A stretch of 36,127 nt of DNA, taken from the NCBI GenBank assembly GCA_030065255.1, contig JASJCX010000004.1:1-36127 (forward strand), in the 5' to 3' direction. Each line of letters starts with the position of its first letter. Position 1 is the stretch's first letter. Under the pieces are notes generated by a model. It did no database searches, was not told the DNA's origin, and saw only the letters and a list, made by a program, of their open reading frames with translations. This DNA is from Calothrix sp. MO_167.B42. Lineage in GTDB: Bacteria; Cyanobacteriota; Cyanobacteriia; Cyanobacteriales; Nostocaceae. Positions 17,212 to 36,127 of the stretch are shown here, in pieces. Made by a program: the position numbers and the translations under genes.

Positions 17212-17246
17212 GATAATTAAAGGGGTTCAATGCCCCTTTAATTATC
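17212..17246 (-). terminator. Hairpin overlapping the tnpA stop codon
   Basis: Fourteen-base perfect arms (GATAATTAAAGGGG and its complement) with a seven-base loop include the last tnpA codons and stop. It could end tnpA transcription before the DUF3318 gene, and is also part of the IS left end. Confidence 0.6.
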
Positions 17247-17645
17247 AGGATTATTTTGTTTCTCCACATAGGATTTAAGTTGCTCAAGAGTAACTCCTCC
17301 GCATGATGCGACAAAATATGCACCCGTCCAAAAAACGGGCTTGTTGTAAAACTGATTAACTTGTTCATGAAACTCTTTACGAATTAATCGACTTGAAACA
17401 GTTTTCAAGTTGTTGACTAACTTGCTGACTGCAACATCTGTTGGGTAACTAATGACTAAATGAACATGGTCTGATTCTCCGTTAAATTCAGTGACTTTAC
17501 TCTTCCACTTGGCGCAAGTATTTTCAAATATTTCTTGTAAACGATTAAGCATTGGCTGAGTAATTACTTTTCTGCGATATTTAGTTACAAGCACTAAATG
17601 AATATTTAAACTATAAACTGCTCTATGTCCTACGTTGTAACTCAT
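17238..17645 (-). CDS. tnpA: IS200/IS605 family transposase TnpA (Y1 HUH)
   Basis: A 135-residue Y1 transposase, normal length for IS200. The HUH motif is HVH at residues 60-62 (GESDHVHLVISYP) and the catalytic tyrosine is in LKSYVEKQ at about residue 126. The N-terminus VYSLNIHLVLVTKYRRKV is family-typical. It cuts and rejoins single-stranded DNA at the hairpin ends of the element. The frame is intact and divergent from tnpB. Confidence 0.93.
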   Translation of the reverse strand: MSYNVGHRAVYSLNIHLVLVTKYRRKVITQPMLNRLQEIFENTCAKWKSKVTEFNGESDHVHLVISYPTDVAVSKLVNNLKTVSSRLIRKEFHEQVNQFYNKPVFWTGAYFVASCGGVTLEQLKSYVEKQNNPDN

Positions 17646-17669: not shown

Positions 17670-18929
17670 ATGTTACTAACTTACCAGTACAAACTCAATC
17701 CCAAAACAGAACAGGTTGTCATCCTTGAAGCCTGGGGAGAACTGCTGCGTCGTCACTATAACTACGCGTTAGAACAAAGACTAGACTGGTTAAATAGAAC
17801 AAGGTCACAGATTGACCGTTGTAGTTTGGTTTGTGAACCAATTGGTGAGATATCTGGGAAAGTTGATTACTATACACAAGCGGCTGACCTTAAACAAACT
17901 AAAGAACTATTTCCTGAATACAAAAACATCTATGCCGATTGCCAACAGCAAAACCTCATGAGGTTAGACAAGGCATGGAAGCGGTGGTTAGTACCAGATA
18001 AAAATGGTAACAGAGGAGGACGACCAAGATTTAAAAAACGTGGTGATATGTGCTCATTTACTTTTCCTCGTGTTAACTGTGCCAAAGCCGGAGCGCGTTT
18101 AACAGGTAATATTCTCAAACTCTCTAAGATTGGGGGAATTGAGGTGATTTTACACCGCCCAATTCCAGACGGATTTGACATTAAACAAGCGACTATCCTC
18201 AAAAAAGCAGATGGTTGGTATGTCAGTTTTTCTCTGGAAGATAAAACCGTACCCACTTTATTACCTGTTGATGAAATTAAAGCTGCTACTGGCATAGATG
18301 TTGGGTTAGAAAAGTTTTTAACTACTGCTGATGGGCAAAGTATTGAAGTACCACAGTATTACCGCAAAACACAATCTACTCTAGCCCGTCAACAACGCAA
18401 GCTTGCACGTAAAACCAAGGGGTCTAAAAACTACCAGAAACAAGCCAATAAGGTTGCAAGACTTCACTTGCACGTTGCAAGACAAAGGAAAGAGTTTCAC
18501 TATCAAGTTGCTCATTGGTTGACTAAATCCTATGACTTAATTGTTTTTGAAAACCTAAACATTAAGGGTTTGGCTAGAACACGTCTAGCTAAGTCAATAC
18601 TCGATGTTGCCTGGGGCGCATTTCTCCAAATCATGCAAGCAGTAGCGGTAAGACGCGGCAAACATACAAAAGGAGTTGACCCTAGAAGAACAAGTATTAA
18701 TTGTTCTGGTTGTGGACAGAGGGTTGAGAAAACTCTTGCGGTTCGTGTTCATAGCTGTTCCTGTGGGTTGGTGATTGACCGGGATTGGAATAGCGCATTG
18801 AATCTTTTAAATCATGGGTCGGTTGGACTACCGATTCCTGGCTGTGGAGGCTTAGACGTTGGTCAGCCAGTGAAACAGCAAGTCTCATTTGTGAATTTGA
18901 GATGCTCCCGCGCTAACCGCAAGCGGTAA
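17670..18929 (+). CDS. tnpB: TnpB, RNA-guided nuclease of IS605-type element
   Basis: A 419-residue TnpB, the compact RuvC nuclease ancestral to Cas12, guided by an RNA from the transposon right end to cut the empty donor site and favour retention of the element. The N-terminal helical domain contains LLRRHYNYALEQRL and the GNRGGRPRFKKRG segment. The RuvC residues are visible: D210 in GIDVGLEKF, E294 in IVFENLNIKG and D372 in DRDWNSALN. The zinc ribbon has C345/C348 (CSGCG) and C363/C365 (CSCG); the one-residue spacing in the second pair is a variant I recall from cyanobacterial TnpBs. The frame is intact and all catalytic residues are present, so it is likely active. Confidence 0.93.
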   Translation: MLLTYQYKLNPKTEQVVILEAWGELLRRHYNYALEQRLDWLNRTRSQIDRCSLVCEPIGEISGKVDYYTQAADLKQTKELFPEYKNIYADCQQQNLMRLDKAWKRWLVPDKNGNRGGRPRFKKRGDMCSFTFPRVNCAKAGARLTGNILKLSKIGGIEVILHRPIPDGFDIKQATILKKADGWYVSFSLEDKTVPTLLPVDEIKAATGIDVGLEKFLTTADGQSIEVPQYYRKTQSTLARQQRKLARKTKGSKNYQKQANKVARLHLHVARQRKEFHYQVAHWLTKSYDLIVFENLNIKGLARTRLAKSILDVAWGAFLQIMQAVAVRRGKHTKGVDPRRTSINCSGCGQRVEKTLAVRVHSCSCGLVIDRDWNSALNLLNHGSVGLPIPGCGGLDVGQPVKQQVSFVNLRCSRANRKR

Positions 18930-33792: not shown

Positions 33793-33825
33793 CACTCCGT
33801 TAACCTAAGCATGAGAGTCAGGAAG

Positions 33826-33866
33826 AGGCAGGGGGCAGGAGAGCAGGGAGCAGGGAGCAGGGGTCA
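33826..33866. repeat. Heptanucleotide repeat (GCAGGGA)n
   Basis: Four or more GCAGGGA/GCAGGAG units after the MFS gene; same repeat as inside the GT39-like gene at 15247. The remaining DNA to 34075 holds the TGATATCATTTCCG solo end and no gene. Confidence 0.8.
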
Positions 33867-34135
33867 AATCCCGGTTCGCTATTTTCCTCAATTTTATTGA
33901 TTGTATGCGTGATATCATTTCCGTTTGTATCGGAATTATTTAAATTTCCTTCTTCTCCCTCTGACTCTGCGCTCTGTTGTGCCTGGAGTAGTTTTTTTTA
34001 TCATTCCGATGTAACCGGATTTGATATGATTCGGGTTTTGCTCGGTTTTGTTTTTGGTGATTGATTTTGTCGAAAGTGGGTAGCTAGCTAGCGAGGTTTC
34101 CTCCGTAGTGGCTCCTTTTCCAACTAGCCCCCTCC

Positions 34136-34170
34136 GAACCGTGCTTACGAGATTTCCAGGTACACGGCTC
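34136..34170 (-). ncRNA. Group II intron domain V
   Basis: A 35-base hairpin GAGCCGTGT ... CACGGTTC with a GAAA-like internal region, the conserved catalytic domain of group II introns, at its expected place just after the intron protein's stop codon. Confidence 0.75.
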
Positions 34171-34186
34171 TCCAGTATTCTGCGTT

Positions 34187-35071
34187 TCACAAGACTCTTT
34201 TACCTGTAGGTCTACCGGGGTGTATTGCATCGTGGCATTGAGGACAGACCATCAAAGTCTTCCTTTTACGTGCGGACATAACTTGCATCCAAAGCGGTTG
34301 TTCCTTCCTGCCTTTCATTTTGAGGTCTTTGAGGGCGCGAATGTGATGAACTTCAATATCACCTCTTGCCCCACAAAGCTCGCATTCGTCAGCGAGAAGC
34401 CGTTTAACTAGTTCATTTCTGAACGCGGGTTTTCGCTTTGTGGGCAAATCTTCTATGTTCGCTTTTAGGTTACGTTTTAATTGAATGCCGCCGAAACGAG
34501 CAACTAAGGGTTTCTTGCCATCTCTGGGAACGATTATTTCCACACATTTTCTCAAACCGTGCGGAAGTTTTACCGTCTTATGATATTTGGCACAGATTTT
34601 AGCCACGCTTGTCTTGTGTTTGCAAGCAAGGGTTTTCATTAAGGAACTCCACATAATCCATTGGAGTTTTCGGAGCCATGCAATATTTTGGGCAAGGCTA
34701 TAGAATTGTACGTATCCTCTAAATTCTGATTGGTAAATGTTAACGATAGTAAAATCGTCATCATTTATTAATTCAGGACGATGAATGGGTTTGCCATTCC
34801 TCATATATAGAGCGCACTTTTCTTCTATAAAGCTTGCTGGAATTCTTAGGGCAACAATTCCGTTAATTGAGCGTCTACCTTGGGTATGCTTATTGTCAGA
34901 ATGTTGAACTAAAATATTGTAACCTAAAAAGTTTGCCACCTCATTTCTGGCGTGGGTAATTAAGGTCTTTTCTGGGGATAATTCTAACTGTAGTTTTTCA
35001 GCCAGAAATACCTTTAGTTTTTCCTTAATTTCTTTAGCTTCTTGAAATGAGCCAATAAAACTCGCGTACCT
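34187..35071 (-). pseudogene. Group II intron-encoded protein, C-terminal part (maturase X, HNH); RT domain deleted
   Basis: About 294 residues homologous to the C-terminal half of a group II intron protein. It begins at ERYA-SFIGSF, where intact proteins read RYADDF..SFIGS, so the catalytic YADD aspartates are gone, along with all upstream RT motifs. Present are LELSPEKTLITHARNEVANFLGYNI (end of RT), the maturase/thumb region GYVQFYSLAQNIAWLRKLQWIMWSSLMKTLACKHKTS, and a C-terminal HNH endonuclease (CELCGARGDIEVHHIRALKDL, then CPQCHDAIH). The open frame reaches 35182, but the first 37 codons are ribozyme sequence. It cannot act as a reverse transcriptase. Confidence 0.85.
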
Positions 35072-35571
35072 CTCGATACAAGTGAGAAGAATACCTGTTC
35101 TCCTTCGCCATGTGGACGGCTTTCCCGTCCCCGGACTACTATGAGAACTCTGTAACCATAGGGGTCTCCCCCCGTAGGTCATCCCGTGCTTAATTAACTC
35201 GGTACGTAACAGTGTGATTTAGGTGTCCCATTCATTCCTTAAGCCATCTCATCGGTGGCTGACTCCGGACGGAAGAAGTTGCGTGGTTCAAATGCTTAAA
35301 ACTACGCACCGTCGGTTATTCCTTTTTAGGCGTTGTAGGAATAGGCAATCGCTTATACCGTCAGAATTGGGCTTCAAGTAGTTTAACCTTCACCATGTCA
35401 CACAAGTCTTGCCGAACAATAGTTTTAACGCCTTCTCTCCATTTTCGGCTTTACCAACATGCTGTTGTCCCTTTTGTCTTTCGACTCCAGGTAAGTTGGT
35501 TAACTTAGAGACGTTCTTCTTAGTCTCTCCCAACTAAGGTTGGGGATACCGTGCTAACAGTCACGGCGCAC

Positions 35572-36120
35572 ACATTTGGCAATATCTGCATCTAAGACGT
35601 ATTTCGCCTTTTGGCATATTGCTGTATGGATTGCTTCAACAGCATCATGTGTTGATCTTCTTGGTCGAAAACCGTATGAGTGAGGTTCAAACTTTGCTTC
35701 CCATTCTGGCTCTAATGCCAGTTTAAGTAATGCTTGGGTTGCCCTATCTCTCATAACTGGGATACCCAAGGGACGTTTTTCATCTTTACCGGGTTTTGGT
35801 ATCCATACCCTACGAGTTGGTAATCTACTGGATTTGATTTCCAGTGTGCTTACCATACTTATACGTTGTACGGGCGTTAGGGATTTGATTCCATCAACCC
35901 CAGCAGTTTTCCTCCCTTGGTTTTCCTGTGTTACTCGCCTCACAGCGAGACACTTTGCGTACCAAGATTTTGTCAGAAGCCTTTGCAAACGATGGACTTT
36001 TTTAACATTTCCACTCAACGAAGCTTGATAGATTCTCTTTTGGAGCTTGAAGACTTTAACCTGAATTTTCTTCCAGGGTAAATCCTTCCATTCATACCTA
36101 ACCGCAAGCGATTGGCTCAT
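35572..36120 (-). pseudogene. Outer group II intron reverse transcriptase, N-terminal part, interrupted
   Basis: The first 183 residues of a group II intron reverse transcriptase/maturase: KWYAKCLAVRRVTQENQGRKTAGVDGI (RT0), RRVWIPKPGKDEKRPLGIPVMRDRATQALLKLALEPEWEAKFEPHSYGFRPRRSTHDAVEAI (RT1-RT3) and KYVLDADIAKC (RT3, first catalytic Asp). At that cysteine the second intron begins; the in-frame continuation VRRDC-stop (to 35554) is intron sequence. After the nested intron, FDKINH resumes at 34074-34057, but the rest of the RT is not found downstream, so the outer intron has lost its 3' part. The 5' ribozyme part of the outer intron lies beyond the window. Confidence 0.85.
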
Positions 36121-36127
36121 AACATAT

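Follow-up and report, generated by a model that had tools for sequence, protein, structure and literature searches.

A probably dead twintron in Calothrix, with a group II intron nested at motif A of another intron's reverse transcriptase

The window, by which we mean the whole 36,127-nt stretch of Calothrix sp. MO_167.B42 DNA analyzed here, carries close to one end, on the minus strand, the start of a reverse transcriptase (RT) gene of the group II type. Its frame (36120-35572) matches the profiles PF13655 RVT_N (E 4.2e-35) and PF00078 RVT_1 (E 5.9e-12). The frame breaks off after DADIAKC, and it does so, as the first-pass annotation had claimed, exactly where a group II intron begins: GTGCGCC starts at 35571, and its GTGCG has the GTGYG form of a group II 5′ end. 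The features are collected in Table 1. What had been described as an intron of about 1.5 kb with domains V and VI does carry them (RF00029, 45 bits against a cut-off of 40, at 34172-34075), and on its 3′ side FDKINH, proposed as the continuation of the RT, is in frame when the intron end is set at 34075.

Table 1. Features of the nested introns in the window (positions of the window; identities to locus L219 refer to the uninterrupted RT of genome G034).
Feature	Position	Strand	Remarks
Outer intron RT ORF, 5′ part	35572..36120	(-)	183 codons, last residues DADIAKC; RVT_N + RVT_1; DNA match to G034
IBS2 ATTGC, exon -12 to -8	35579..35583	(-)	5/5 pairs with EBS2
IBS1 AAATGT, exon -6 to -1	35572..35577	(-)	6/6 pairs with EBS1
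Inner group II intron	34075..35571	(-)	GTGCGCC...CCCACT, 1497 nt
Proposed EBS2 GCGAT, intron nt 220-224	35348..35352	(-)	hairpin loop of D1
Proposed EBS1 GCATTT, intron nt 277-282	35290..35295	(-)	terminal loop of covarying hairpin
Internal deletion junction	35060..35061	(-)	~907 nt gone relative to L029, from RT start codon to just past YADD
Inner intron-encoded protein remnant	34187..35060	(-)	open frame; Intron_maturas2 + AI2M-like_HNH; dN/dS 0.10
D5 + D6 of inner intron	34075..34172	(-)	RF00029, 45 bits
Outer RT 3′ exon remnants	34027..34074	(-)	34074-34050 (FDKINHQK) 96%, 34049-34027 100% against L219
113-nt repeated element in outer remnant	33914..34026	(-)	ATCA on both sides, inverted ends
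Outer RT remnant	33863..33913	(-)	94% match to L219 1116-1066
Outer intron 3′ end, last part of D6	33796..33820	(-)	25/25 nt against L219 268-244

Homologues without the intron show what has been interrupted. The 5′ part of the outer RT is 92.5% identical in DNA, over 557 nt, to the uninterrupted RT of genome G034 (L219), and in G053, G087 and G034 the RT reads through the insertion site in open frames of 598, 602 and 571 aa, with protein identities of 85%, 85% and 87%. The possibility that the 1.5 kb is a normal part of one single intron, named beforehand as what would overturn the nesting, is ruled out by these uninterrupted RTs. The empty site of G034 reads AAATGT^TTCGAC, where the caret marks the junction (GATATTGCCAAATGT^TTCGACAAAATC); the additional T at 34075 thus came with the inner intron, and from this comparison it is best read as the last base of that intron. 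The annotation had left two explanations for this T, a 3′ boundary one base off or a frameshift. The boundary was indeed off by one, the intron running from 35571 to 34075, and the 3′ limit at 34076 has to be given up. With the exon frame kept in this way, the intron ends in ACT. Group II introns usually end in AY, and by that rule the splice would fall one base earlier than 34075.

The same arrangement recurs in other genomes. Among 150 relatives, the inner intron is matched at nearly full length in G014 (twice), G040 and G143, and also in G054, where the contig cuts it short. Every one of these matches lies at the motif; four loci (L027, L028, L029 and L031) have both junctions there and a fifth, contig-cut one (L030) has the 3′ junction, which excludes chance. 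A group II intron is inserted inside another intron's RT gene in the window, and it lies, as first supposed, at a conserved RT motif, with junctions exact against the uninterrupted homologues and the same motif occupied in other genomes. A chimera, in which the assembly joined two unrelated intron fragments, might be suspected from a draft of 384 contigs, and from a contig that stops at 36127, inside the element, so that D1-D3 of the outer intron lie beyond the window. But both junctions are exact in frame and are repeated in complete genomes and plasmids, and we give such an accident practically no credence.

Both partners have decayed in the window, as had been proposed. The inner intron lacks about 907 nt in comparison with the G040 copy (L029, 2404 nt), including the RT part of its protein, so that an intact RT/maturase, open in relatives, is absent from the window. 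The maturase and HNH remnant has a dN/dS of 0.10 against both L029 and L027, compared with 0.09 between those two, in a calculation that took in four of seven sequences (L190, L195 and L199 were left out). Thus the loss of the RT part looks recent, or else the remaining frame stayed useful. The outer tail survives in pieces of 25, 23, 51 and 25 nt, at 96, 100, 94 and 100% identity to G034; about 340 nt of the outer intron are gone between 34050 and 34049, and about 800 nt more are also gone. In comparison with L219, on which RF00029 spans 247-323, the outer D5 is absent from the window and just the last part of D6 is left, which leaves no functional outer ribozyme there. An earlier view of ours, that the outer intron ends after FDKINH, was overturned by these pieces, which reach 33796. 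A BLAST search with the 3′ flank (word size 7, E 1e-3), run on a set from which G034 was absent, gave no match. When the window's own genome was searched for intact inner and outer introns, as the annotation had recommended, that genome, which is 80% complete, held no intact copy of either and no other copy of either protein; neither partner is therefore likely to move there.

Some further repeats lie in the window. CCCTGCT heptamers occupy 33862-33821 in place of outer intron sequence. The 113-nt element (33914-34026, minus strand) is MITE-like, with imperfect inverted ends of about 24 nt (about 19/24 by eye), and has 43 matches in its own draft genome, itself included. At some distance, 17238-17645 (-) and 17670-18929 (+) form a divergent pair that by eye resembles IS200/IS605 TnpA and TnpB.

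The two nested introns are not close kin. The protein of L029 (594 aa) is LtrA-like, scoring 398.9 bits with LtrA against 120.6 with 6me0, a different intron RT of solved structure, which we take to be the Thermosynechococcus T.el4h protein; the outer RT piece scores 124.5 bits with 6me0 against 48 with LtrA. Judged by these best matches, the inner and outer introns belong to different protein lineages.

How widespread is the inner intron, and where does it sit? A pattern made from the first 30 nt of the intron, which is blind to the exon, was run on 218 genomes from the same family, and 17 of these gave a total of 34 copies. RTs of two classes hold 29 of the 34, at the site DI(A/E)(K/Q)C^F. 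Flanking sequence was fetched for every one of the 34 and, with the G143 copy and a Chloroflexota copy added, 36 copies were examined: 20 are at DIEKC^, a further one (L210) is in that RT too, with a single base inserted in the exon, 10 are at DIA(K/Q)C^ (the window included), and five are elsewhere, outside RTs (L187, L196, L205, L213 and L214). Both ends could be recognized in 21 of the 36, of which 17 measure 2399-2405 nt and the other four 1497 (the window), 2047, 2577 and 3681 nt. In eighteen of these 21, FD of an RT follows in frame; of the rest, L187 is outside an RT, and L199 and L200 (G529) continue into a later part of the RT, their outer RTs having lost the stretch between. As a side observation, L213 and L214 (both G581) lie in ORFs that by eye encode WD repeats, at ..GKC^, which is another repeated motif.

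A pattern scan of GTDB genomes returned 115 stretches. In 20 of them the inner intron lies in an RT; 19 of the 20 are from Nostocales, and the last is from Ktedonosporobacter rubrisoli (Chloroflexota). The other 95 were dismissed by eye, on how the exon translates and how the intron starts. The Chloroflexota copy (L139) is the sole full copy in its genome, and it occupies the same site with both junctions (CCCACT^TTCGACCGCATCAATCAT). Copies also lie on plasmids, in records of Nostoc UHCC 0302, Calothrix NIES-4105 and Nostoc MS1, and full-length inner introns occupy the same motif in other genomes. In a phylum sample of 386 genomes, three had a match, the window's own among them; a G290 match in that sample, with two mismatches, is not counted as the inner intron. 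The exact junction pattern had 0 matches in viral contigs. On the other hand, there are 386 empty target motifs in 129 of the 218 genomes, with 0 for the reversed control among the matches listed, and 7 genomes with copies resident in RTs, together with 2 that have no such copies, still hold empty targets, so the spread of the intron is limited. The carrier genomes gave a hint that their targets are saturated, but an empty site is equally lacking in many genomes that do not carry the intron, and we make no such claim.

The site can be examined through its pairing with the intron. The annotation had named a lack of EBS pairing with the flanking exon as a refutation; instead, the proposed EBS1 and EBS2, which were placed by eye with the exons known beforehand, pair with the window's exon at 11/11 positions, and among 72,230 window positions none pairs better and three others pair equally. 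Pairing could be scored in 24 of the 36 copies (in the 12 left out, the contigs end before the EBS region), and is 11/11 in 6, 10/11 in 14, 9/11 in 3 and 6/11 in 1, the last being L210, whose exon has one inserted base. For 9 of these scored copies, L210 aside, between 1 and 8 positions of the copy's own locus pair better (these copies fall among L028, L029, L187, L188, L193, L195, L208, L209, L211, L212 and L215), so that pairing alone names no unique site. The consensus of our own alignment of 11 D1 sequences folds into 142 pairs, and for 42 of these one sequence or more has both partners altered. The inner intron combines this covarying, conserved D1 fold with EBS-IBS pairing, its Rfam D1-D4 match (35179-35100) being under the cut-off at 23.6 versus 35 bits.

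The choice of EBS2 was itself revised: GGTAT, picked by eye, was dropped when it did not follow the exon changes, and GCGAT/TCGAT did. The first base of EBS2 is T in 6/6 genomes of that type, with a target A at -8, and introns of the G type have C at -8 in 5/7 genomes. The base before CGAT tends to agree with the class of RT that the intron occupies (Fisher p 0.021, counted by genome, in a test chosen after seeing the data and with G014, which has both types, left out). The inner introns' own RTs read DI(R/K)GC; of nine compared with the exon that the intron occupies, eight pair worse and one pairs equally well.

All this could still be the record of an ordinary dispersed intron, one that inserts at any IBS-like sequence, where RTs happen to be the most numerous matches and other insertions have been purged. 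The 386 empty motif sites in 218 genomes do make RT targets plentiful, and 5 of the 34 copies are outside RTs, at target-like sites, so the preference for RTs is not absolute. Such an intron would not, however, be expected to place 29 of 34 copies at one codon boundary of one gene family, nor to have the base before CGAT tend to match the RT class, as it does in the test chosen after the fact. We find this account unlikely, at perhaps the weight of one chance among several.

We next consider how the copies relate to the introns that hold them. D5/D6 of both the inner and the outer intron are found in 11 of 20 loci, and these loci are therefore twintrons. In G014, four inner copies are 100% identical over 2399 nt, against 48-76% identity in their 450-nt exon flanks; G503 also has four identical inner copies, and two of their outer introns are the same. 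Identical copies in diverged flanks point to recent insertion into dispersed targets in G014 and G503, and gene conversion could be partly behind the identity. Pushed to its limit, that last thought becomes an alternative in which the outer lineages were invaded long ago and gene conversion keeps the inner copies within each genome identical. It would account for the 100% identity within G014, G503 and G529, and also for the two G529 loci, with their common 3′ but not 5′ flanks, as recombination through the intron would leave them. But the intron is missing from most RT copies, its occurrence is scattered (17 of 218 genomes), and an insertion into each outer lineage would still be required. 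We consider it improbable.

Recent insertion is not the only movement suggested by these comparisons. In G562, L210-L212 share 4.62 kb of outer plus inner intron at 99.5-99.9% in three places. The shared part begins at approximately the outer GTGCG and stops 3 nt beyond the outer D6 match, and the fetched stretches show no similarity farther out; here the composite seems to have moved as one unit. L190 and L192 in G503 share 4.66 kb at 99.7%, with similarity reaching about 56 nt past the outer D6, which makes them a less clean case. Two separate observations belong to these loci. L199 and L200 (G529) have identical inner introns and 3′ flanks but only 74% identity in their 5′ exons, a pattern that recombination through the inner intron would leave. 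The other strand carries two tRNA matches at L190:732-1014, near a Calothrix twintron.

It is already known that group II introns can be nested and can home into intron ORFs. Dai and Zimmerly reportedly described nested introns of Methanosarcina acetivorans in 2003, in a paper whose title is said to speak of related intron ORFs. The present case differs in that inner and outer introns are of different protein lineages and in bacteria. Methanosarcina nested introns and homing into intron ORFs are described in the part of PMC4424553 available to us. The Thermosynechococcus elongatus twintrons, in the portion of PMC2882425 that we consulted, are introns of family F3 that sit inside F1 introns, between the RT's first two start codons. 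They resemble ours in having a group II intron at one conserved site in other introns' RT ORF, and identical inner copies in diverged outer introns; according to the same portion, though, their inner introns are ORF-less and close relatives of the outer ones, whereas the inner intron here encodes its own protein of another lineage and is found at motif A across several genera and in outer RTs of two classes. The F3-type arrangement (ORF-less inner intron, first two start codons, related outer RT) is not what we find. In Trichodesmium (PMC4649490, as excerpted), a cyanobacterial group II intron is likewise nested in a group II intron, in a protein gene and with splicing measured, but the excerpt describes one twintron and no family aimed at RT motif A. 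A survey, in the extract of PMC8919778 that we consulted, states that nested introns escaped its program. In our literature search we recognized no description of an inner-intron family at RT motif A. What look like new elements are the motif A target, the unrelated inner and outer introns, the two outer classes and the two phyla.

Our explanation, in which we have high confidence taken as a whole, is that a group II intron of the LtrA-like kind entered the RT motif A codons (DIAKC^FD) of another group II intron, probably by retrohoming, where pairing of EBS1 and EBS2 with the conserved motif A sequence would guide it. Its lineage is one of Nostocales, met once in Chloroflexota, and most of its copies are at motif A of other introns' RTs, of two classes; a motif that RTs cannot easily change would be a multi-copy, mobile and mostly non-host target. 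With the inner intron spliced out, the outer RT would be whole again, and the outer intron could then stay mobile and carry its passenger. The insertions, their site and the patterns of identity are read from the DNA itself, as is the decay; we infer splicing, retrohoming and the dependence of the outer RT on inner splicing. In the window's genome, the RT part of the inner protein has been deleted and the outer intron has collapsed, and what is left in the window is, within the same high confidence, a dead twintron. The broader picture, of a passenger lineage on unrelated group II introns that homes into motif A, is carried with the composite, adapts its EBS2 to the RT class and has crossed between Cyanobacteria and Chloroflexota in either direction, we put forward as somewhat probable.

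Homing endonucleases favor codons that genes cannot change. If our reading is true, the same strategy would be used by one retroelement against another, with the catalytic core of the victim's enzyme as the target. The copies would offer a naturally occurring collection in which identical introns occupy diverged targets, among them two RT classes and one pair from different phyla, and which suits tests of EBS/IBS adaptation, sequential splicing, composite mobility and the cost to the outer intron. It also carries a warning for annotation: RT genes split at DI(A/E)KC may be spliced, not dead.
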